A stretch of DNA of 32,744 nt, from contig JAFPVP010000083.1 of NCBI GenBank assembly GCA_017412925.1, forward strand, positions 1 through 32,744, in the 5' to 3' direction. Below the pieces are notes generated by a model. The model saw only the letters and a list, made by a program, of their open reading frames with translations. It was not told where the DNA came from and did not search any database. The first letter of the stretch is position 1, and every line of letters starts with the position of its first letter. The stretch comes from Selenomonadaceae bacterium. Lineage in GTDB: Bacteria > Bacillota > Negativicutes > Selenomonadales > Selenomonadaceae. The translations under genes and the position numbers were made by a program. Shown here piece by piece: positions 8,894 through 28,348 of this stretch.

Positions 8894-9298
8894 ATGAATA
8901 TCGAACATGTTGCCATCTACGTAAACAACTTGGAAGTCGAACGAGAATTTTTCACGAAATATTTCGGCGCGAAGGCAAGCGAAAAATACACCAACTTCCG
9001 CAACGACTTCACCAGTTATTTTCTTACTTTCGACAACGGCTCGCGTTTTGAAATTATGCACCGCACCGGTATGTTTGACCCCAAGAAAGAAAAATATCGT
9101 TCCGGCTATCATCATATTGCGCTTAACGTCGGCGGCAAAAAAGATGTTGACGCACTTACAAGCAGATTGGAAGATGACGGAATGGTTATCGTGGTTGCTC
9201 CGCGCAAGACGGGCGACGGTTATTATGCAAGTATTGTGACTGACCCCGAAGGTAACGAGATTGAACTTCTTGCGGGCGGCACTGTTTACGACAACTGA
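8894..9298 (+). CDS. VOC-family (glyoxalase-fold) protein 1 inside spc operon
   Basis: This 134-residue protein has the vicinal-oxygen-chelate fold, built from two beta-alpha-beta3 modules. Candidate metal ligands match glyoxalase I spacing: His5 (EHVAIYV), Glu53 (RFEIM), His74 (GYHHIAL) and Glu124 (DPEGNEIELL). Glyoxalase I converts the methylglyoxal-thiol hemithioacetal; other VOC members are dioxygenases, epimerases or thiol transferases, so the substrate is not assigned. ATG 8894 has GGACGGAGG upstream and sits 18 bases after rplF on the same strand, so it should be transcribed with the ribosomal genes. A paralogue follows directly. Codon use resembles the neighbouring ribosomal genes, giving no sign of recent acquisition. 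Confidence 0.9.
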   Translation: MNIEHVAIYVNNLEVEREFFTKYFGAKASEKYTNFRNDFTSYFLTFDNGSRFEIMHRTGMFDPKKEKYRSGYHHIALNVGGKKDVDALTSRLEDDGMVIVVAPRKTGDGYYASIVTDPEGNEIELLAGGTVYDN

Positions 9299-9329: not shown

Positions 9330-9734
9330 ATGAAGATTGAGCACGTTGCCATGTACGTTAATGACTTGGAGGCGGAGAAAAATTTCTTCGTCAAATACTT
9401 CAACGCAAAAGCCGGTTCCAAGTACAGCAATTTCCGCAATGACTTCAGCAATTACTTTTTGAAATTCGATGACGGCTCGCGCTTGGAAATCATGACGCGC
9501 AACAGTGCAACCGATGCAGAAAAAACTCGTTATCGCACGGGTTTTCATCACATTGCAATCAGCGTCGGCGACAGGAAAGACGTTGACGACATGATGAAAA
9601 AATTCGACGCGGACGGCGTTATCGTTGTAAGCGGCGCACGCACGACCGGCGACGGTTATTATGCGGCGGTTGTCGTTGACCCCGAAGGCAACGAGATTGA
9701 AATTATCGCGGAAAATGCCGGTTTGCGCGACTAA
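9330..9734 (+). CDS. VOC-family (glyoxalase-fold) protein 2, tandem paralogue
   Basis: This second 134-residue VOC protein has the same length as its upstream neighbour and is about 57% identical to it by hand count without gaps. All four candidate metal ligands are kept (His5, Glu53, His74, Glu124), as is the block around TGDGYYA and DPEGNEIE. It differs most at residues 57-68, which may shape the substrate pocket. AACGGAGG precedes ATG 9330. A gap of 39 bases with an A6T5 block separates it from rplR. The pair looks like an old tandem duplication in which both copies have stayed functional. Confidence 0.9.
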   Translation: MKIEHVAMYVNDLEAEKNFFVKYFNAKAGSKYSNFRNDFSNYFLKFDDGSRLEIMTRNSATDAEKTRYRTGFHHIAISVGDRKDVDDMMKKFDADGVIVVSGARTTGDGYYAAVVVDPEGNEIEIIAENAGLRD

Positions 9735-16764: not shown

Positions 16765-16796
16765 ATGCTGTCCGGTAAGACGGAGAGCATTTTTTT
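16765..16796 (+). terminator. Intrinsic terminator after rplQ
   Basis: The arms ATGCTGTCCG and CGGAGAGCAT pair (with a G-G mismatch) around a GTAAGA loop and are followed by seven T residues. It ends the ribosomal operon just 26 bases before the FHA gene start, so some readthrough into that gene is possible. Confidence 0.85.
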
Positions 16797-16821
16797 ACGC
16801 TTGTGGAAGGAGGCGGATAAA

Positions 16822-17592
16822 TTGAAATCGGCAAGCGCGATAATCGAACGACTGGCAAATTTTTTTCAGCGGCGCAGCGAAGTTGAGCCTAACGAATTGA
16901 TTAAAGCTTTGGAACGCGAAGTCGCTAAGCAAAAAAATAAGGAGAGCCTCGTCCCGAATTCTTACACGATTTATCTTTGCGAGGAAGATTGTCACCGCTT
17001 GAGCGCGTCGCGGCTGATTAAGGCTCTGCATGAGGCGATTGAGCGCAAAGTTATCCGCGAAGATTGTTTCATGGAAGGCGCGCTCACCGTCAAGATAAAA
17101 AAAATGACTGCCGACGACAACGCGATTGTCATTGTGTCGAGCTACGTCGACGAAGCCGCGCAGGAAGAGGACACGATTAACCTTGAAAACGACGTGCTGT
17201 CGCCGACGCTGATTCAAGACGCGGAGACATCTGACGACGACAAGACAATTATCGCCAACAAAACAAAAATCGTCGGGACAATGCGCACCGCCACGCCGCG
17301 AAAAGTTGAATATAATTTGGCACTGCTCACCGATTACAAGACGGCGGAAGTTGTCTTCGGTGAACGGCAAATTTATCTGGGGCGCAAGGAGACAAATGAT
17401 TTCGTCCTAGCCGACGAGAGCGCGTCGCGAATTCACGCTTACATTGCCTACGAGCGGCACCGCCATGTTCTCTACGACGCGGGCAGTTTGAACGGCACCT
17501 TTGTCAACAAGCGACCGATAAGCCGCCGCGAACTCAAGGACGGCGACAAAATTTTAATCGGGCGCACGACGCTAACTTACAAAGTCCTGTAA
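16822..17592 (+). CDS. FhaA-like protein (DUF3662 plus FHA domain)
   Basis: The 256-residue protein has an N-terminal region resembling the FhaA/DUF3662 domain (IIERLANFFQ, ELIKALEREV, VPNSYTIYLCEEDCHRL) and a C-terminal FHA domain, separated by an acidic linker with several Thr-rich spots (residues ~120-170). The FHA phosphothreonine-binding signature is intact: YLGRKETNDFVL, SASRIHAYI and SLNGTFVN. FHA domains dock onto Thr-phosphorylated partners of Hanks-type kinases, and such a kinase gene lies at 26439-27854. TTG 16822 is chosen because AAGGAGG lies eight bases before it. A frame opening at 16765 lies in the terminator and is rejected. Confidence 0.85.
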   Translation: MKSASAIIERLANFFQRRSEVEPNELIKALEREVAKQKNKESLVPNSYTIYLCEEDCHRLSASRLIKALHEAIERKVIREDCFMEGALTVKIKKMTADDNAIVIVSSYVDEAAQEEDTINLENDVLSPTLIQDAETSDDDKTIIANKTKIVGTMRTATPRKVEYNLALLTDYKTAEVVFGERQIYLGRKETNDFVLADESASRIHAYIAYERHRHVLYDAGSLNGTFVNKRPISRRELKDGDKILIGRTTLTYKVL

Positions 17593-17708: not shown

Positions 17709-17930
17709 TCAGCTTGCAACGTTTTGAGATTTTTTTTGACGAAGCCGCGCCGGTTTAAATTTAGCGAGTTCTTCATCTGTCAACGGCGGAATGTCGCTGT
17801 AATCAATATCTTTGTCATATTCTTCATCGCTAATATTTTTTAATCTTTCAAGTTCAATCCGCGCAATTTCCTGCATTTCTTCATATGTATATCTCGGTTT
17901 TAAGCTACGTTTAATAAATAAATTGCCCAT
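17709..17930 (-). CDS. brnA: BrnA-family antitoxin
   Basis: The 73-residue protein has an acidic N-terminal half and the DIPPLTDEELAKFKPARLR segment that resembles BrnA antitoxins, which neutralise BrnT and autorepress the operon. It follows brnT and overlaps it by 20 bases, the usual toxin-first order of this family. The start ATG 17930 has GAGAGGTG ten bases upstream, inside brnT. The ribbon-helix-helix part is short and weakly conserved here, so the assignment rests partly on the neighbour. Confidence 0.72.
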   Translation of the reverse strand: MGNLFIKRSLKPRYTYEEMQEIARIELERLKNISDEEYDKDIDYSDIPPLTDEELAKFKPARLRQKKSQNVAS

Positions 17931-18210
17931 AATATTTTTTCACCTCTCTTTTATTTGCCAATCGGGCTGAAATGAGCCGATATTTTTCGCCGCGCTCTGT
18001 ATAAATCACCACAAGCACCTTATCAACCATTCCGATAACTTTTATTCTTTCTTCGTAGTAACTATGCTCTTCGTCGAAATCATCAATCAAAAATTCATCT
18101 AAAAAAATTTCCGCTGCCTTTTCAAAACTGATTCCGTGTTTTTTCCTATTAATCTCGGCTTTGTTGTCGTCCCACTCGACGATATACTCGCCAATTTCAA
18201 TTTCGCCCAT
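17911..18210 (-). CDS. brnT: BrnT-family toxin (DUF497 ribonuclease)
   Basis: BrnT toxins are RelE-fold ribonucleases that halt translation when free of BrnA. The 99-residue product has the family landmarks: YIVEWDDNKAEINRKKHGISFEKA near the start, an EERIKVIGMVDKVLVVIYTERGEKYRLISAR core, and a basic KREVKKYY tail. The ATG has GGAGATG upstream, and a promoter lies 19 bases further up. It appears intact and may be active. Confidence 0.88.
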   Translation of the reverse strand: MGEIEIGEYIVEWDDNKAEINRKKHGISFEKAAEIFLDEFLIDDFDEEHSYYEERIKVIGMVDKVLVVIYTERGEKYRLISARLANKREVKKYYGQFIY

Positions 18211-18316: not shown

Positions 18317-18685
18317 TTACCAGTCCCAATCCTTCACGTCCATGAACTTATGGCAGTATTCCATTGCGTGCCTGCGTGCTTCACTTTGAGTGATTTTCTT
18401 TTCGCCGAGGTAGTATTCATTGCCGGTTATTGCTCCGTTGTGCGCGGTAAACGTGATTCCGACCTTTGCCCAACCGGCTTTAATTTCGTCTTGGATTTTG
18501 TTGCCAGGGGTAAATGCGATTCTGAGTGCGCCGTAGCGGTCGGTTGAGCCGTTCAAGCTGTTGAGGAAGCGACTGTCCGCCGCTGTTTCCGCCCAAGTGC
18601 CGCCTGCGACCTGTTCGAGTTCCTCATCGCTCATTGCTTCGAGTGCCGTGTCGATTTTTTTGATGTTGTCTTCTCTGGTTGCCAT
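18317..18685 (-). CDS. Double-glycine leader protein, possible secreted peptide
   Basis: The 122-residue product starts with a leader ending in AMSDEELEQVAGG, closely resembling the double-glycine leaders cleaved by peptidase-containing ABC exporters (bacteriocin or Nif11-type). Cleavage after Gly29 would release a 93-residue product with many aromatic residues, one cysteine (HAMEYCHKF) and a DVKDWDW end. ATG 18685 is selected because AAAGGAGA precedes it; the frame opens earlier at 18757 without a site. No exporter, immunity or modification gene is visible nearby, so its function is unknown. The single cysteine argues against a disulphide or lanthipeptide product. Confidence 0.75.
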   Translation of the reverse strand: MATREDNIKKIDTALEAMSDEELEQVAGGTWAETAADSRFLNSLNGSTDRYGALRIAFTPGNKIQDEIKAGWAKVGITFTAHNGAITGNEYYLGEKKITQSEARRHAMEYCHKFMDVKDWDW

Positions 18686-18762
18686 TTTTATCAGTCTCCT
18701 TTGATTAAATTTTGTTTTCTGTAGCTTATACGTGGGAGAACCGATTTCGTTACACAATCCGC

Positions 18763-21341: not shown

Positions 21342-21372
21342 CAAAAAAAAATCAGCCCGCCGTAGCGAGCCG
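21342..21372 (-). terminator. Terminator after the Sel1-repeat gene
   Basis: On the - strand a GC-rich hairpin (GGCTCGC with GCGGGCT, one G-T pair, loop TACG) is followed by nine T residues. It closes the run of genes that starts near 26260. Confidence 0.85.
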
Positions 21373-21385
21373 AAAAATTTTTACC

Positions 21386-22240
21386 TTAACGCTCCAACAT
21401 GGCGGCGGCCTCTTCGCTGCCACGTTCAGCAGCTTGCCGCAGAAGGCGCAGACCTTTTTTAGTGTCTTGACGGACGCCAACTCCCTTGTAATAAAGCCCG
21501 CCGAGAAACGCCAGCGCATTAACATCATCTTGAGCAACCGCCGCGTTCAAAAGTTCAAAGCCTTTATCAAAATCCTGTTCGACGCCCATGCCCTGAATAT
21601 AGAACATGCCCAAATTGGTTTGCGCCGGCGGGAAACCCTGCGCGGCAGATTTTTCAAGCCACTCCAACGCCGCAAAAAATTCGTCGTCGGAGGCTTCCTC
21701 GTCCGCCAAATAATAATCGGACAAATTGAACTGCGCCAAAGCGTCGCCTGCGCGGGCGGCCTCCTCGTAAAGTTCAAGCGCAGTCTCCATGTCAGCTTCG
21801 ACGCCGTTTCCGTTCTGATAGCAGATTGCCAGAAAAGTTTTAGCGTAGGCGTCGCCGTGCCGCGCGGCTTTTGTGTACCACTTGACGGCTTTGGAATAAT
21901 TTTGCGCAACGCCCAATCCGTCGAAGTAGCAATCAGCGAGCCGCGTTTGAGCCGTCACGTTTCCTGACTCGGCGGCTTGCGCGTAAAACTCCGCCGCAGT
22001 CTCATGATCTACAGCCGCGCCGAACAAACCGTACATGCAAATATCGGCATAGGCAAGTTGGCTGTCGACGTTGCCAGCTTCTGCTTCGCGCCGGAGTTTG
22101 TCAATGTAAAGAACGTCATCAATCTCGCCGGATAACTGCGCCCATTGGTCGTGCTCACGTTGCATTTGCTGAATCCGCGCTTTGATGTGTGGAGGCACGT
22201 CCTTTTCGGAAACGACTCGCCTTTGAAAATCATCAGACAA
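21386..22240 (-). CDS. Sel1-repeat protein
   Basis: The 284-residue product is a helical solenoid of about six to seven Sel1-like repeats (signatures such as A-x-RLADCYFDGLGVAQNYSKAVKWY, FLAICYQNGNGVEAD and GMFYIQGMGVEQD) preceded by a charged helical region. Sel1 repeats mediate protein-protein contacts, often in membrane-associated signalling. No signal peptide is seen. TTG 22240 is chosen: it follows AAAGGA by nine bases and lies one base past the preceding stop codon. The open frame continues upstream but overlaps the neighbour. As the last gene of the AAA+ cassette it may scaffold the complex. Confidence 0.85.
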   Translation of the reverse strand: MSDDFQRRVVSEKDVPPHIKARIQQMQREHDQWAQLSGEIDDVLYIDKLRREAEAGNVDSQLAYADICMYGLFGAAVDHETAAEFYAQAAESGNVTAQTRLADCYFDGLGVAQNYSKAVKWYTKAARHGDAYAKTFLAICYQNGNGVEADMETALELYEEAARAGDALAQFNLSDYYLADEEASDDEFFAALEWLEKSAAQGFPPAQTNLGMFYIQGMGVEQDFDKGFELLNAAVAQDDVNALAFLGGLYYKGVGVRQDTKKGLRLLRQAAERGSEEAAAMLER

Positions 22241-22241
22241 A

Positions 22242-23165
22242 TTACTCAATCCTTTCGTCGATTTTAGTTGATTTGGCGTGGCGAACATACCAACGCCCCT
22301 TGTCCTTAGCCATGGTGACTTGCCCGTTGAAGACTTGAATTTTTATTCTGCCGTCGTGATAGCGGTCGCGCGCCGTCAACGTGTAGTCAAAGGTTTGCGA
22401 ATCTTCGTCGGAACTCACGAGCTTTATATCGCTGACTTCGCTGCTGATTGTGTCTTTAAAGCCCGCGACGTATGAATTAAAATCGCCGACGCGCTCCCGC
22501 TGTTTGTAGGATAAAGTTTCGTAAGCCGCGCGATAATTTTTTTCCGTAATCGCTCTGTGATAATTTATAAAAGTTTGCTTTGCGTCGTTGGCGTCGTCAG
22601 CGGTCGTTTCAGGCTCAGCGATTTCTATTCCGTTGTCCCAGTTGCTGTGAATAATTCTGCCGCTGGGAAATTTGTGAGTAAAGCGACCGTGCCGCTGTCC
22701 GTGCCGAAAAGTTCCCTCGTCGATTTGTTCGATTTGCCCGTCGAGATACCAGGTTGTTATCCCCGCGCCGTCAGCAAATTTATTGTTGCCGTCTTGAACG
22801 TAGCCGCCGCTCCACGTGATTGTCTCGCCGTCCTGCGGTTTCGGGTTCCAAAGATAAACGCCGTTGCCGTCCTTAATCCAATTAATTCCAAGCGACGTTG
22901 CGGGCGGCGGAGTTTCGTTTACAGGTTCGGGCTCCTTAATTTTAGTTTCCGTCTGCTCAACTTTGGGCTTCGGCGGCGGCGCAGATTTTTTTTCGTCATC
23001 ATCGCCGAATATAAAATTGAACGCGATAAAAAGTGCGACGACTATCGCGACAAGACAGCCGCAACCGACTTTGCCTTTGGGCAGTTGGGCTTCCAAGCTG
23101 GCGCGTTGTCTGCCGGGAATTTGGTCGAAGGAAACTTTTCGCTTGGTGCGTTCCTCGTCGCTCAT
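22242..23165 (-). CDS. Membrane-anchored MORN-like protein with NTF2-like C-terminal region
   Basis: The 307-residue protein has a cytoplasmic basic N terminus, one membrane helix near residues 33-54 (CLVAIVVALFIAFNFIFG), a proline-rich linker of about 35 residues, and a central region with MORN-like repeats (GNGVYLW, GTFRHGQRHGRFTHKFPSGR). The last 110 residues resemble an NTF2-like domain (FINYHRAITEKNYRAAYETL through DKGRWYVRHA). It would expose the MORN and C-terminal parts outside the membrane. ATG 23165 follows AAGGGAG; only three bases separate it from the previous gene. Exact function is unknown. Confidence 0.75.
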   Translation of the reverse strand: MSDEERTKRKVSFDQIPGRQRASLEAQLPKGKVGCGCLVAIVVALFIAFNFIFGDDDEKKSAPPPKPKVEQTETKIKEPEPVNETPPPATSLGINWIKDGNGVYLWNPKPQDGETITWSGGYVQDGNNKFADGAGITTWYLDGQIEQIDEGTFRHGQRHGRFTHKFPSGRIIHSNWDNGIEIAEPETTADDANDAKQTFINYHRAITEKNYRAAYETLSYKQRERVGDFNSYVAGFKDTISSEVSDIKLVSSDEDSQTFDYTLTARDRYHDGRIKIQVFNGQVTMAKDKGRWYVRHAKSTKIDERIE

Positions 23166-23168
23166 AAT

Positions 23169-23612
23169 TTACGACTCCCTTTTGCTCTTGGGAATTTTGC
23201 GTATCTCCGGTGATTCAGTTTGCGCAGAAGTTTTCGGCTCTTCGGGCTCGTCAATCTCGTAAATAATTTCTTTCTTGCCGCGCAGTTCCTCCAAAGCTTT
23301 CTCGTTTAAATATTCCGTGCTCTGCGGCTTGCTCTTTGCGCCCTTCTTAACGTAATCGCCGTCGCGGTCTTGGAAATAAAGTTCAAAGGAAAGATTAAAA
23401 ACTTTTTCATCGGCGTAGGAAATTTTAAAATTGCCGCCGACGTAGCTTAAATTTTTCGCTTGCTCGTCGCGAATAATCGAATCCAACTTTTTGGAATAAA
23501 TCGCGGCAAGCTCGTCAAGCTCCATGTTCGGCGAGATGATGACGCTAAGAAAAGTATCGATGACATTTGAAGTCGTCGCGCCGAAGGCTCCGAACAAATT
23601 TTTCAATGGCAT
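23169..23612 (-). CDS. Hypothetical protein of AAA+ cassette
   Basis: This 147-residue protein is not recognised. Its first part is hydrophobic or amphipathic (MPLKNLFGAFGATTSNVIDTFL), the centre is a mixed alpha/beta region with VGGNFKISYADEKVFNLSFELYFQDRDGDY, and the end is a charged, disordered tail rich in Glu, Pro, Lys and Ser. ATG 23612 is preferred over GTG 23621 because GAGGTG lies six bases before it. It follows the preceding gene by 10 bases and is followed by the MORN gene after three bases, so it is clearly part of the operon. No catalytic motif is apparent. Confidence 0.7.
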   Translation of the reverse strand: MPLKNLFGAFGATTSNVIDTFLSVIISPNMELDELAAIYSKKLDSIIRDEQAKNLSYVGGNFKISYADEKVFNLSFELYFQDRDGDYVKKGAKSKPQSTEYLNEKALEELRGKKEIIYEIDEPEEPKTSAQTESPEIRKIPKSKRES

Positions 23613-23622
23613 AATGTGCACC

Positions 23623-23973
23623 TCAATTCAATGACAACTGCAATTCCTCTTCGACCTCGTCGGTGACTTCCGTCTCGTGGTTGCGGATTTTCCTGCGAAT
23701 GTTGGGCGGGATTTCGCTCTCTTTAATCTTGCGCGTGGTAGTCTCCTCGATCCACTCGCCCTGCTCTTGATAGTAAAGTTTGTGCCGAATCGCCGCCAAG
23801 CCGCGCTCGACCCGCTCGATAAAAGCTCCTGCCGCGTGCGCAATTTTTTTCTTCAGCTCCGAGAACATTCGCCGCAGACCAGCCACCAGCTTTTTTAGCC
23901 AGTCCACAATTTCATCCCAAAAGGCGACGAGCAAAAGTCCGCCTATTCCCAATCCTATCAACAGTGGAAGCAT
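23623..23973 (-). CDS. Small membrane protein of AAA+ cassette
   Basis: The 116-residue protein has an N-terminal hydrophobic segment (LLIGLGIGGLLLVAFW, residues 4-19) followed by an amphipathic basic region (WLKKLVAGLRRMFSELKKKIAHA) and an acidic C terminus (ETEVTDEVEEELQL). ATG 23973 follows AAGGAG and shares its first base with the last base of the AAA+ gene's stop codon, so the two are translationally coupled. It is probably a membrane adaptor for the ATPase; the function is inferred from position only. Confidence 0.72.
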   Translation of the reverse strand: MLPLLIGLGIGGLLLVAFWDEIVDWLKKLVAGLRRMFSELKKKIAHAAGAFIERVERGLAAIRHKLYYQEQGEWIEETTTRKIKESEIPPNIRRKIRNHETEVTDEVEEELQLSLN

Positions 23974-24908
23974 TATATCGGCTCCTTTTCCTTAGTTTTA
24001 TTTAATTGCGATTGAACGTATTCCGCTGAAACTTTGCGCTTGGTGACGGTGACGCTGCCGACTTCGTTAGCTTTCCGGCTACTTAAAATATCTTCGACGG
24101 CTTCAAAAAATAAACTTTTGTCGACGAAGCGCATTTTCCGCCGCGCGGCTTTGAACGCCGCATTCAGCACGGCATTGGAAATATCGCTGCCGGAAATCCC
24201 GTCGAATTTTTCTGCCAGCTCGTCGAAGTCAACATTTGTCGGCAATTTTTTTGGAATGTACATTTGCCACAAACGCCGACGACAATCCAAATCGGGCAAA
24301 GTAAATTCAACGTGCATGGAAATTCGCCGCATGAACGCCGGATCAAAATTCTCAATAAAATTCGTGGCGAAGATTATAAAATCTTGGAACTCGTTCATCA
24401 GTATAAGCATAACCGAGCGCGTCTGATTCACGCTGACATCGGTTGCGTTGGACATGTTGGTCACGCGGCGGCTTAAAATCGCGTCCGCCTCGTCGAAAAA
24501 TAAAATGCTGTTGGAAGCCTTCGCCGCCTCAAAAACTTTGCGGATATTTTTGGGCGTCTCGCCGACGTACTTTGATTCAATATCGGCGTAGTTCACGGCA
24601 AGAATTTTTCTGCCCAAATGTTTTGCGATAGCGTGCGCCGCCATGGTTTTGCCCGTGCCCGACGCGCCGTAAAGATTGATTCCGATTCGCTTTGAATATT
24701 TGTGCGTTTCCGCTAAGCCCCACGTTTCAAAGACGAGCCGACTATTTTGCGCGTATTCTGCCACGTCCAAAATTTTTTCCTTCAGCGGCGCAGGCAAAAC
24801 AATATCCTCCAAAGAAAATTTCGGCTCTTCCGGAAGATAAATCGTTTCCTCCGCCTTCTTCTTTGCAGGTTCGTCTAAACTTTCCGTGACTCGTTTCCCT
24901 ATTCCCAT
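23973..24908 (-). CDS. AAA+ ATPase, classical AAA clade
   Basis: The 311-residue ATPase has Walker A GASGTGKT (81-88), Walker B ILFFDE (135-140), sensor-1 Asn in FATN (near 183) and paired arginine fingers in MRRIS (near 194-195). The pore-loop motif KYVGE (113-117) resembles that of katanin/VPS4/FtsH-type unfoldases, which thread substrate proteins through a hexamer. The N terminus is a short charged region without a large substrate domain, and no protease or zinc motif follows, so a disassembly or remodelling role is more likely than proteolysis. ATG 24908 follows AGGAGTG. A coupled small membrane protein is encoded next. Confidence 0.88.
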   Translation of the reverse strand: MGIGKRVTESLDEPAKKKAEETIYLPEEPKFSLEDIVLPAPLKEKILDVAEYAQNSRLVFETWGLAETHKYSKRIGINLYGASGTGKTMAAHAIAKHLGRKILAVNYADIESKYVGETPKNIRKVFEAAKASNSILFFDEADAILSRRVTNMSNATDVSVNQTRSVMLILMNEFQDFIIFATNFIENFDPAFMRRISMHVEFTLPDLDCRRRLWQMYIPKKLPTNVDFDELAEKFDGISGSDISNAVLNAAFKAARRKMRFVDKSLFFEAVEDILSSRKANEVGSVTVTKRKVSAEYVQSQLNKTKEKEPI

Positions 24909-24942
24909 GTTGCACTCCTAAACAAAATTTTTATTAGCTTCC

Positions 24943-25044
24943 TCATACAATCAAAAAAGCAATTACTCCTATTATCAGAGCAATCACGCGATAACCTGCA
25001 AGCCATAAAATAATTCCCAAAATATATAAAACCGCCGCAAACAT
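24943..25044 (-). CDS. 33-residue membrane peptide
   Basis: A short frame with GGAGGCG eight bases before ATG 25044 encodes 33 residues, nearly all hydrophobic (MFAAVLYILGIILWLAGYR, then VIALIIGVIAFLIV). It looks like one long or two short membrane helices with a central YR turn. It lies between the SHOCT gene and the AAA+ gene in the same orientation with 21- and 34-base gaps. Proper spacing of the ribosome binding site, the hydrophobic pattern and operon position support a real gene. Similar tiny membrane proteins often regulate larger membrane complexes. Confidence 0.6.
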   Translation of the reverse strand: MFAAVLYILGIILWLAGYRVIALIIGVIAFLIV

Positions 25045-25065
25045 TTAGGGTCGCCTCCGAAATTT

Positions 25066-25956
25066 TTATAAACGCCCCATCAATTCCGTTTTCTTGGATT
25101 CAAATTCTTCGGGCGAAATAATTCCCGCGTCTTTTAATTCTGCAAGCTGTTTAATCTTGTCAATTACGTTTTCCGAGACGCCGCCCGATTGACCTTTGGA
25201 TTGATTTCGTTTCATAATGACGGTGAGCACGGAGGCGACTTCTTCCACGCCTTTTTTGATTATGTCTTTGAACAAAACTTCTTTTCTTTCCAACGCCGGA
25301 ACGCCGCAATCATTTCCGATAAAGTGAATGTAGCGCGTGTTGTCGTTCATGTCGTCGAGGATAATTTTCATGGAAAGTTCTTTGCACTTTTTAATGTTGC
25401 TCGCGCTGAGTGCACCGAGCGCAGCGGAAATTAAGTCGCCGTCCAAAAGGTCGGCTGTCGCCCCAGCCGTTTCCGCAAGCACACTGCCTTCCGTTTTTCC
25501 GTCGTCGACCAACTGAAAACCGACAATGGCGGAGAACGGCACAACGTCGTCAGCATATTTTGTTTTGCTGAACAAGCCGCCCATGCGATATTCGGGGATG
25601 TTGATTAATTTTCGTCCTTCGTCAATTTCAAGATAAGGCAATTTATCCGTCAACCTGTTCAACACGCCGACCACTCGATATATTCTTTTTGTGGGAGTGA
25701 ACTCGTCGGGCGAAACCAAATTTTTTTCTTTGAACAGCTGCAAAAGGTCTGCCTTAGTCCATTTTTTCTTGAAGTCGGTGCTGTTGAATCCTTTTGCCAA
25801 AAAACACTCTTCGCAAATAAAAGTTTCGTCCTTCAAAGTGAAATCGGGCTTGCTGTAAATTGAGCCGTCCGATTCTTTGACCTCGGCAATCATCGGTTTG
25901 CCGCAACACATGCAGTGCCCGACTTCGCGCTCCACCGTCTTTGTAAAAAATCCCAT
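25066..25956 (-). CDS. Zinc-finger-like and SHOCT-domain protein
   Basis: The 296-residue protein starts with a possible zinc site (two CxxC pairs: Cys15/Cys18 in HCMCCGK and Cys48/Cys51 in FICEECF), resembling DUF4428-type modules. A middle region follows (IYRVVGVLNRLTDKLPYLEIDE through YIHFIGNDCGVP) that may be a PH-like sensor. It ends in a SHOCT domain (LAELKDAGIISPEEFESKKTELMGRL, about residues 268-296). SHOCT domains occur in oligomerising membrane-associated or stress proteins. ATG 25956 with GGGAGGG upstream is preferred over the long upstream frame, which overlaps the regulator gene. Confidence 0.8.
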   Translation of the reverse strand: MGFFTKTVEREVGHCMCCGKPMIAEVKESDGSIYSKPDFTLKDETFICEECFLAKGFNSTDFKKKWTKADLLQLFKEKNLVSPDEFTPTKRIYRVVGVLNRLTDKLPYLEIDEGRKLINIPEYRMGGLFSKTKYADDVVPFSAIVGFQLVDDGKTEGSVLAETAGATADLLDGDLISAALGALSASNIKKCKELSMKIILDDMNDNTRYIHFIGNDCGVPALERKEVLFKDIIKKGVEEVASVLTVIMKRNQSKGQSGGVSENVIDKIKQLAELKDAGIISPEEFESKKTELMGRL

Positions 25957-25984
25957 GCGTCTTCCCTCCCAAAAAAATTTTCGC

Positions 25985-26260
25985 CTAAACAAAATTTTTA
26001 TTGGCTTCCAAACACAGCCGATCCTCCTCCTCGCTGAAGGTGACCAGCGACGCCAAATCAACGCCCAAACCGTTAGCAATGTCGAGCAGAGTCGGGAGCG
26101 GAAAACCGCTGTTGTATCTGCCGCGCTCAATTCGCCCGATTGTGCTTTCGCTCATGCTGACTTTTTCGGCGAGTTCGGCTTGCGTCATCTGTCGAAGGTT
26201 GCGATAGTAAGCAATTTTCGCGCCGATTTGCCTGTAGATTATTGTGTTCTTCCTCTCCAT
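25985..26260 (-). CDS. XRE-family HTH regulator
   Basis: The 91-residue protein is a Cro/CI-type helix-turn-helix: IGAKIAYYRNLRQMTQAELAEKVSMSESTIGRIERGRY, then a leucine-rich fourth helix (PLPTLLDIANGLGVDLASLV). It is probably the regulator of the downstream genes up to 21386; the SHOCT gene begins 28 bases later in transcription order. ATG 26260 follows AAGGAA. The C-terminal codons (EANKNFV) are repeated as a relic at 24920-24943. Confidence 0.85.
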   Translation of the reverse strand: MERKNTIIYRQIGAKIAYYRNLRQMTQAELAEKVSMSESTIGRIERGRYNSGFPLPTLLDIANGLGVDLASLVTFSEEEDRLCLEANKNFV

Positions 26261-26438: not shown

Positions 26439-27854
26439 TTAATCGGCAATGTCGAACCACACGCACCAATAATGCTCGTCCATTTTGGATTCGTCGCCCT
26501 CCAGATAAATTTGTAGGCAAACGGAAAGTCTGTCCTTGTTCGGCAACTCGAACGTGTCGAACGAAATTATAAAATCAGTCGCCGCTCCAACCTCCAGCGC
26601 GGGCAAAGTTTTTGTTTCCTCCAATTTGTCGCCGCCCCAATTTGGCGTGAAAATAATTTTTATCGACGGATCTTGCCAAGCGGCGGCGGTGTCGTTGGTT
26701 ATGTGCAGTCGCGCTTGAGCCTGTAGCCACTCCGCGCGGGAGATTTTCTCCCTGTCGTTCTTGTGCTCGTCCTGATTGAACAGCGCGCCGTTCAGATAAA
26801 ATTGCGTCTTGAGGAGTCCCGAAAAAGTTTTTCGCGGCTTCGGTTCAAAAGTTATCGGCGCGGCGGAGCTTGACGCGGGCGGCGTTTCAGGTAATTTCAA
26901 ATCTTCCTCGGAAAAAATTTTTCGCGGCGGCGGTTTGTATTCTTTAGGCGCGGCATTCGGCAGAGAAATTTCTTTTTGCGGCGGCAAAATAATTTCGGGT
27001 AACTTAAATTCGATTGTCTGCGCGGGTGTGGAAATTTTTTCGACTGGCAATGTTTCGACCTGCGCGGCGATTTCCTCCGAAAAATTTTCGTCGCGGTTGA
27101 GTGGCGGCGAAGTCGCAAATAAAAAAATTCCCGCCGTCAACAAAATCAGCGACTTTATAAAAATTCGCGGTTCTTCAGCCGTGAGCGCGGTTTTTAGCTC
27201 GTCGACGCTCTGGAAACGGTTAATCGGGTCGTAGGCGGTGCATTTGTCTAAAATTTTTTTCAAAGGTTCGTCGCAATTTTTGCCGAGCAGAATTTTCATC
27301 GTGACGCCAAGGGAATAAATATCGCTGCGCGGGTCAGTCTGTCCGCTGCCGTATTGTTCGGGCGGCGCGTAGCCCTTCGTGCCCAAAAGTCGCGTGTCGG
27401 CTTGCTTGCCGTCCTTAAAAATCCTCGCCGCGTCGAAGTCAATCAATCGAACGCGCCCGCCCTGTAGAATCAAATTCGACGGCTTTATATCGCGGTGAAT
27501 TATGTTTTGCGCGTGAAGTTCCCTTAGCCCGTCGCATAACTGCAAAAGTATCGCCCGCGTCTCCGATTCGCTTAAAGGCTTTTTCCGTTCGTGAAGATTT
27601 TCGCCGTGGATAAATTCCTCAACGATGACCGTTTCCGCCGCGTCCTCCACACAATAAAAAATCCGCGCGGGCAACTTGAACGAAAAATCTTTTATCACGT
27701 CGTAAGGTAGACCCGTCGATAGAACGCGCTTTATTATGACCAGCTCGCCGCCCTGCCGCGTTTGTGCCAGCCACACTTCGCCGCGCTCCGATTGTTTGAG
27801 CAGTTTCAATTTCTCAAAGCGGAACTCCAAAAATTCCGCGACGTTTCCTTTCAT
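26439..27854 (-). CDS. Hanks-type Ser/Thr protein kinase, membrane-anchored
   Basis: The 471-residue protein has an N-terminal kinase domain (about residues 10-230) with ATP-anchoring Lys42 (VIIKRV), catalytic HRDIKPSN (120-127) and APPEQ substrate-loop motif (163-167). The metal motif reads DFD (139-141) rather than DFG. One membrane helix follows (about 233-249, SLILLTAGIFLFAT), then a proline-rich segment and an external domain of about 100 residues (WLQAQARLHITNDTAAAW to the C terminus). ATG 27854 is chosen with AAGGCAAGG upstream; a start at 27926 would reach past the divergent promoter. The FHA protein at 16822 and the adjacent HTH gene are plausible partners. Confidence 0.9.
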   Translation of the reverse strand: MKGNVAEFLEFRFEKLKLLKQSERGEVWLAQTRQGGELVIIKRVLSTGLPYDVIKDFSFKLPARIFYCVEDAAETVIVEEFIHGENLHERKKPLSESETRAILLQLCDGLRELHAQNIIHRDIKPSNLILQGGRVRLIDFDAARIFKDGKQADTRLLGTKGYAPPEQYGSGQTDPRSDIYSLGVTMKILLGKNCDEPLKKILDKCTAYDPINRFQSVDELKTALTAEEPRIFIKSLILLTAGIFLFATSPPLNRDENFSEEIAAQVETLPVEKISTPAQTIEFKLPEIILPPQKEISLPNAAPKEYKPPPRKIFSEEDLKLPETPPASSSAAPITFEPKPRKTFSGLLKTQFYLNGALFNQDEHKNDREKISRAEWLQAQARLHITNDTAAAWQDPSIKIIFTPNWGGDKLEETKTLPALEVGAATDFIISFDTFELPNKDRLSVCLQIYLEGDESKMDEHYWCVWFDIAD

Positions 27855-27863
27855 CAGTGCGCC

Positions 27864-27892
27864 TTGCCTTTCGATTGTCCTTGCGCTATATT
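27864..27892 (+). promoter_or_regulatory. Promoter of HTH gene, overlapping the divergent one
   Basis: TTGCCT and TATATT are separated by 17 bases, 24 bases before the HTH ATG at 27917. Its -10 box overlaps the -10 box of the oppositely directed kinase promoter. Confidence 0.55.
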
Positions 27893-27917
27893 TTACAAAA
27901 ATTGGAGGCGAATGCAA
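27890..27917 (-). promoter_or_regulatory. Promoter of kinase gene
   Basis: On the - strand TTGCAT and TAAAAT are separated by 16 bases, 35 bases before the kinase ATG. The -35 box extends to the first base of the HTH gene's start codon. Confidence 0.5.
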
Positions 27918-28348
27918 TGCCCGCAAAAGACACCGCGCAACTCGAAAATGAATTGGTCGAAGCCGCTGACATGAAAAAATTCCTCGATGATAACGAGGAA
28001 AATTTTCGTCGGTTCACGCTCGCCGAATATCTGCGCCGGTTGCTTGTCGAAAAAAATTTGTCGCAGGCGCAAGTCATAAAAAATTCTCAACTCGACGAGG
28101 GCTACGCGCACCATATTTTCGGCGGCAGAAAAAATCCGTCGCGGGAAAAAATTTTGTCGCTTGCCTTAGCTATGGAGCTTTCGCCAAAAGAGGCGGATTA
28201 TCTGTTATATTACGCGGGGCATAATCGGCTGTACGTTCGTGATGAGCGGGACGCCGTGCTTGCCTTTGCTCTGGAGAATCACAAAACGGTTTTGCAGACG
28301 AACGAACTTTTGGAGGAGCTGAAGTTATCGCCCTTGCTTGTCGGCTGA
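27917..28348 (+). CDS. HTH-domain protein divergent from kinase
   Basis: The 143-residue protein has a Cro/CI-like HTH core: FTLAEYLRRLLVEKNLSQAQVIKNSQL, then HHIFGGRKNPSREKILSLALAMELSPKEADYLLYYAG, with a C-terminal helical tail. The frame is open upstream to 27857, but ATG 27917 with TTGGAGGCG is preferred. It is divergent from the Ser/Thr kinase, which suggests it regulates or is phosphorylated by that kinase, and it overlaps the convergent comF by 24 bases at the 3' end. Confidence 0.8.
   Translation: MPAKDTAQLENELVEAADMKKFLDDNEENFRRFTLAEYLRRLLVEKNLSQAQVIKNSQLDEGYAHHIFGGRKNPSREKILSLALAMELSPKEADYLLYYAGHNRLYVRDERDAVLAFALENHKTVLQTNELLEELKLSPLLVG

Follow-up and report, generated by a model that had tools for sequence, protein, structure and literature searches.

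A membrane-associated AAA+ trio and a short peptide tag in a rumen Selenomonadaceae genome: a putative remodelling module with interchangeable clients

The stretch of DNA analyzed here (hereafter, the window) comprises 32,744 nucleotides (nt) of contig JAFPVP010000083.1 from a rumen Selenomonadaceae bacterium (assembly GCA_017412925.1), whose nearest relatives are labelled as Selenomonadaceae or Quinella metagenome-assembled genomes (MAGs), and carries, at 21386-26260, eight open reading frames (ORFs) that an earlier note, made from the sequence alone, had read as one operon for a membrane-associated remodelling machine. These eight ORFs are not one conserved unit; the real unit is a trio consisting of a AAA+ ATPase (AAA), a small membrane protein (SMP) and an acidic protein (ACID). 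Four of the eight otherwise unrelated operon proteins, moreover, bear a tag of ~22 residues (roughly TxxR[KE]VSEx[YE][VI][PK]xx[IL]), located C-terminally in AAA and SMP and N-terminally in two further proteins, “MORN” and Sel1. The reading that we favour, and to which we give about even chances of being right, is that of a membrane-tethered AAA+ remodelling module, in which the fixed trio would recruit clients via the tag, with the beta-domain of ACID/SMP acting as the receptor.

The trio is gained and lost as a set, and this is stronger evidence for it than the gene neighbourhood. Among the 300 genomes of a class-level sample, 34 contain AAA or ACID, with AAA seen in 33, ACID in 33 and both in 32 (Fisher P 9e-41, without correction for relatedness), and SMP tracks the same genomes, plus a few extra weak matches. 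AAA and SMP-ACID are situated at separate places in ~11 of the co-occurrence genomes (e.g., G010, G301 and G314), so linkage alone fails to explain the co-occurrence; the genome of the window has a second SMP-ACID pair (contig 22) apart from a second, untagged AAA (contig 68), and genome G004 is without AAA, SMP and ACID. The order AAA-SMP-ACID recurs across loci (gene calls in the relatives, most of whose genomes are MAGs, come from a heuristic of our own with a codon score), with spacings mostly of -4 to 22 nt for AAA-SMP and of 1 to 22 nt for SMP-ACID. SMP is present in cis for 29 of the 30 tagged AAA genes, compared with 14 of the 49 untagged ones, and the sole tagged AAA counted as being without SMP (L154) has one past a spurious antisense ORF. 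In a phylum-wide sample, SMP is essentially absent outside the family (2/398), the family itself being thinly sampled there.

The tag was first seen by comparing the operon proteins with one another: TRKIKESEIPPNIRRKI in SMP, TKRKVSAEYVQSQLNK at the C-terminus of AAA, and TKRKVSFDQIPGRQRAS and QRRVVSEKDVPPHIKAR at the N-termini of the presumptive clients MORN and Sel1, respectively (the segments recovered by the genome scan are given in Table 1). Matrices trained on the AAA and SMP tags alone, and scored on proteins of other families, reached at least 9 bits for 23 of the 436 same-strand proteins encoded nearby, as opposed to 2 of the 798 other genes (P 4e-9, P values here overstating independence, as the near and far sets include close relatives), and 14 bits for 19 nearby proteins versus 0 others, the matches spanning ~12 protein families. 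A profile of 23 tag sequences, when run against the whole genome with E up to 10, returned just five proteins, the four of the window plus a paralogue of SMP, which shows specificity rather than discovery, since the four had been in the training set. A leave-out profile trained without them placed exactly these four at the top among 733 six-frame window segments, the next match being a ribosomal protein (E 0.31). Elsewhere, the tag is carried by large Sel1/membrane proteins (N-terminally), an acyl-carrier-like protein (C-terminally), short membrane proteins and a membrane/zinc-finger-like protein (L152), as well as by two proteins unlinked to AAA, i.e., an EcsC-like protein beside ruvA/ruvC-type genes (L190:8260-8931) and a 64-amino acid (aa) membrane protein (L185:6717-6911), both of which are possible clients in trans. 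None of the 78 distinct ACID-only proteins has the tag.

As for the trio proteins themselves, the AAA+ assignment made in the earlier note was confirmed (Pfam AAA E 1e-30, AAA_lid_3 E 7e-10), as was its KYVGE pore loop; Walker A (GASGTGKT), Walker B (ILFFDEAD), the sensor-1 N and the RR finger can be read from the sequence as well, so that domain plus lid, Walker motifs, pore loop and arginine finger of a classical AAA+ protein are all there. For SMP, AlphaFold2 predicts a membrane helix, a long helix and a three-stranded sheet (predicted local distance difference test (pLDDT) 76, predicted template-modelling score (pTM) 0.45), with the tag forming the last strand of the sheet and the helix that follows, and for ACID an alpha-beta-beta-beta-alpha-beta domain (pLDDT 80.5, core >90). 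Alignments of the two, compared using hhalign (probability 81%, P 1.2e-5), indicate that SMP and ACID have a domain in common. Structure searches gave no convincing solved-fold match for either of them (best PDB Z 5.2 for ACID and 4.5 for SMP; Foldseek E >0.1), and no Pfam, NCBIfam or PHROGs model reached significance for SMP, ACID or the MORN/membrane protein.

Relatives of AAA are numerous (481 confirmed in genome contigs, along with a paralogue of 76% identity within the same genome), and the trio is not confined to the family. AAA-SMP-ACID is encoded on a plasmid of Moraxella osloensis, where both AAA (NHIVSEDYVKSQI) and SMP are tagged; the AAA of Moraxella phage Mcat5 is tagged too, ending in TRVVSEEYVKSQL, and a Comamonas plasmid also encodes all three proteins, the AAA tail being degenerate there. 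More distant AAA relatives neighbour small membrane proteins in cyanobacteria and phage-tail-sheath-like genes in Aureibacter; a Streptomyces plasmid (L199:5892-11879) has two small proteins, a related AAA and a CHAT-domain protein beside a Shedu-type gene. AAA queries gave no relative in the viral contigs, and there was no DNA-level match in the E. coli genomes. Type I restriction genes seen beside short AAA copies share conserved local synteny and were rejected as functional evidence.

Dynamin-like proteins recur near the module: LeoBC and LeoA directly follow it in four distinct loci (L040/L041, L046, L055 and L058), L040/L041 encode a fusion of LeoBC with an ACID domain, a tagged membrane protein and LeoBC have a common C-terminal domain in L046, L055 and L058, and L049, L051 and L101 have a dynamin-like protein of another kind ahead of AAA. 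This LeoA/LeoBC link suggests that a AAA+ platform is the partner of some dynamin pairs in bacteria, an arrangement of which, to our knowledge, there is no prior description.

According to the mechanism we propose, SMP would tether the complex to the membrane, the tag would be received by the beta-domain of ACID/SMP (probably through strand pairing), tagged clients such as the MORN/membrane and Sel1 proteins would plug into this platform, and the AAA ring would pull on or release them in an ATP-dependent manner. The receptor role is ascribed to ACID/SMP because the tag of SMP is the last strand and helix of its own domain and because ACID is the sole untagged core protein. Pvc15, a AAA protein whose payload must bear a terminal signal peptide (PMC11495950), offers a functional precedent for such a mechanism. 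What the module would do for the cell is less certain: it might survey the envelope or defend against phages, and in some species dynamin-like GTPases might be one of its outputs; mobility, patchiness and the LeoA/LeoBC links make envelope or phage defence a plausible conjecture. Held more tentatively, at somewhat below even confidence, is the wider proposal of a hitherto undescribed “plug-in” system, in which the interchangeable clients of a conserved membrane AAA+ core, whether encoded in cis or at other places in the genome, would be recruited through one short terminal peptide code that is conserved across phyla and found on plasmids and phages; these clients would be solenoids, membrane proteins, acyl-carrier-like and EcsC-like proteins, and dynamins by means of domain fusion. 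If the tag is such a docking code, it would be a handle for predicting all the clients of a genome and for redirecting proteins, and the function of a widespread, unnamed AAA family would become directly testable.

Several points weigh against this interpretation. There are many untagged, shorter AAA copies, and the tag on AAA is therefore dispensable; ACID is the likely receptor by elimination; the tag of MORN is the weakest under the leave-out profile; the near and far gene sets behind the matrix counts hold related sequences; 23 of the 32 co-occurring genomes belong to one genus; and most of the related loci are without a recognised defence gene. Pvc15 is also a distant precedent, its presumed relation to the window AAA running by way of ~35% identity to AAA proteins of Serratia plasmids, which we take to be Afp15.

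A housekeeping role in the envelope would also fit the near-universality of the module in Quinella, and a machine for envelope assembly or quality control of that genus, rather than for defence, is compatible with the proposed mechanism and, in our judgement, a serious minority prospect. It would account for the trio being kept even when split between two loci, yet the module is patchy outside Quinella (~10 of the remaining class-sample genomes), occurs on plasmids and a phage, forms several paralogous loci per genome and has variable clients.

Alternatively, the AAA pore might read the tag directly, as a degron or an engagement signal; the proteins bearing it would then be substrates for unfolding or turnover, and ACID/SMP would serve as adaptors that deliver them. 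The aromatic pore loop of AAA and the terminal position of the tag on most of the soluble tagged proteins speak for this, as does Pvc15, the AAA protein of extracellular contractile injection systems (eCIS), which acts on and unfolds payloads bearing a terminal signal peptide (PMC11495950). The C-terminus of AAA itself is tagged, however, the trio is without a protease gene, and in the short membrane proteins the tag is internal, with the membrane helix on one side and another domain on the other, all of which makes a degron rather unlikely next to the docking code that we prefer.

A tag without any recruiting role, i.e., a piece of the SMP/ACID beta-domain dispersed within operons by partial duplication and fusion, is less probable still, and quite clearly so. 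The tag does correspond to one strand and helix of the domain common to SMP and ACID, and in the sister locus L036 an extra tagged protein of 91 aa (L036:9864-10139), placed between MORN and Sel1, duplicates the tagged leader of Sel1; a dispersed piece would, however, hardly be expected at different termini of ~12 families, on AAA across phyla, or on the EcsC-like and 64-aa membrane proteins unlinked to AAA.

What the earlier note said of the layout was reproduced: all eight ORFs are on the minus strand, AAA and SMP overlap by 1 nt, distances between ORFs are short (28, 21, 34, -1, 10 and 3 nt), and a hairpin of 9 bp with a T9 tail lies directly 3' of Sel1, a call that rests on its position, as the scan for such hairpins gave 12 sites overall versus 9.4 in shuffles. 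Its membrane-associated AAA+ machine and operon also find support, unlike its joining of the eight genes into one machine, which, for all the single strand, short gaps and terminator, is scarcely credible any more (and largely refuted as a conserved unit), given that the insertion encoding the SHOCT and 33-aa proteins is absent from the sister locus and that MORN, Sel1 and XRE occur independently of the trio. Independent occurrence in related genomes, which that note had proposed as a test, thus goes against it for the SHOCT protein, the 33-aa ORF, MORN, Sel1 and XRE, whereas AAA, SMP and ACID co-occur almost perfectly. The tag on four proteins and a recurrent upstream Ser/Thr kinase go beyond what it had noticed.

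The “repeat scaffolds” of that note are better described as variable clients bearing a common docking tag. Sel1 repeats were found as claimed, but the MORN assignment was not upheld by Pfam (one sub-threshold repeat, 16.9 bits versus a cut-off of 22.5), nor was the NTF2-like one, the match being without significance; we keep MORN as a label. This family is found in few loci (L036 and L037, with a fragment in L039), a portion of the protein recurs in a Sel1/membrane protein of L038, and a tagged relative of Sel1 was found in L036 only. The start of Sel1 is most likely TTG 22240, 1 nt past the stop of MORN, rather than ATG 22288, as inferred from the junctions.

No described system could be matched to the set, as the earlier note had held: literature searches gave no paper on it, and PADLOC gave generic AAA matches only. 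The AAA domain resembles IetA models (PADLOC 126 bits), but scores 120.6 bits against the NCBIfam IetA equivalog, whose cut-off is 510, and IetAS has the protease IetS, whereas Pfam and PADLOC gave no protease domain in the eight operon proteins. Eleos is the LeoA/LeoBC dynamin-like GTPase pair; there is no GTPase in the window operon, and the trio lies outside Eleos as described. In the Vps4/ESCRT-III system, a AAA ATPase cooperates, by way of short terminal motifs, with small membrane-associated proteins, yet Pfam gave no MIT or Snf7/PspA match in the operon proteins, and SMP, unlike the ESCRT-III partners, has a true membrane helix plus a beta-domain. Bacterial links between AAA proteins and PspA, and between AAA proteins and membrane stress, have been described (PMC11237479). 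Pvc15/Afp15 and the window AAA are alike in their classical AAA domain, whose pore loop has Lys-Tyr and whose Walker B has DEAD, and Pvc15 acts on peptide-marked proteins (PMC11495950); it has, however, tandem AAA domains, an N domain and disordered signal peptides of 50-70 residues, whereas here the AAA domain is single, the tag is short and conserved, and there is a membrane anchor, and no eCIS sheath, tube or baseplate genes were found among the operon proteins using Pfam and PHROGs. SHOCT and SHOCT-like modules are likewise short, situated at either end of unrelated proteins, and have been proposed to tether these within complexes at the membrane (PMC3581485, PMC11237479), but the tag differs from SHOCT in sequence; the Pfam SHOCT model (PF09851) was not matched by any of the tagged proteins, only by the untagged inserted one.

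Table 1. Features of the operon and its surroundings (window coordinates)
Feature	Position	Strand	Details
AAA, core 1	23973..24908	-	single-domain classical AAA+ ATPase, 311 aa, C-terminal tag
AAA C-terminal tag	23982..24053	-	TVTKRKVSAEYVQSQLNKTK; genome scan; leave-out profile E 5.7e-4
SMP, core 2	23623..23973	-	116 aa, N-terminal membrane helix
SMP tag	23674..23748	-	ETTTRKIKESEIPPNIRRKIRN; genome scan; leave-out profile E 1.6e-6
ACID, core 3	23169..23612	-	147 aa, untagged
“MORN” membrane protein	22242..23165	-	307 aa, N-terminally tagged, putative variable client
MORN N-terminal tag	23085..23153	-	ERTKRKVSFDQIPGRQRASL; genome scan; leave-out E 0.22; AAA/SMP-trained matrix 15.7 bits
Sel1 solenoid	21386..22240	-	~284 aa, N-terminally tagged, putative variable client; Sel1 Pfam E 5e-45
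Sel1 N-terminal tag	22160..22231	-	DFQRRVVSEKDVPPHIKARI; genome scan; leave-out profile E 5.7e-5
Intrinsic-terminator-like hairpin after Sel1	21352..21373	-	9 bp + T9 tail
Direct repeat, copy 1	24917..24949	.	33 nt, insertion boundary
33-aa hydrophobic ORF	24943..25044	-	within insertion
CxxC/SHOCT protein	25066..25956	-	inserted cargo; SHOCT E 4e-9; PHROG 888 E 2.5e-21
Direct repeat, copy 2	25984..26016	.	33 nt, insertion boundary
XRE regulator	25985..26260	-	HTH_3 E 2e-11
Ser/Thr protein kinase	26439..27926	-	likely ATG start 27854; Pkinase E 1e-28

Upstream of the trio, XRE is directly followed by AAA in the sister locus L036 (~95% identical DNA here), while in the window the two are separated by a ~1.07-kb insertion bounded by two direct repeats that are 88% alike. 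It encodes the SHOCT protein, whose domain had been named correctly and which is related to a phage family (PHROG 888), and the 33-aa ORF, for which there is no relative in any of the fetched loci; as a repeat-bounded insertion absent from L036, this pair falls outside the conserved module. Relatives of XRE are present in many AAA loci, often directly upstream of AAA, and the Ser/Thr kinase family recurs upstream in several; both recur more across the related loci than MORN or tagged Sel1 do.

Elsewhere in the window, two tandem glyoxalase-fold (VOC) genes (8894-9298 and 9330-9734) are situated within the ribosomal protein operon, between L6 and L18. A BrnT-type ribonuclease toxin gene (17709-18210, minus strand; Pfam E 1.5e-25) has a small downstream partner of unknown family, and the protein encoded at 18317-18757 (minus strand) has a double-glycine (VAGG) leader that weakly matches leaders of the bacteriocin/Nif11 type. 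Immediately following the L17 gene, at 16765-17592 (plus strand), lies a gene for an FHA-domain protein with a FhaA-like N-terminus, which the kinase listed in Table 1 might target.

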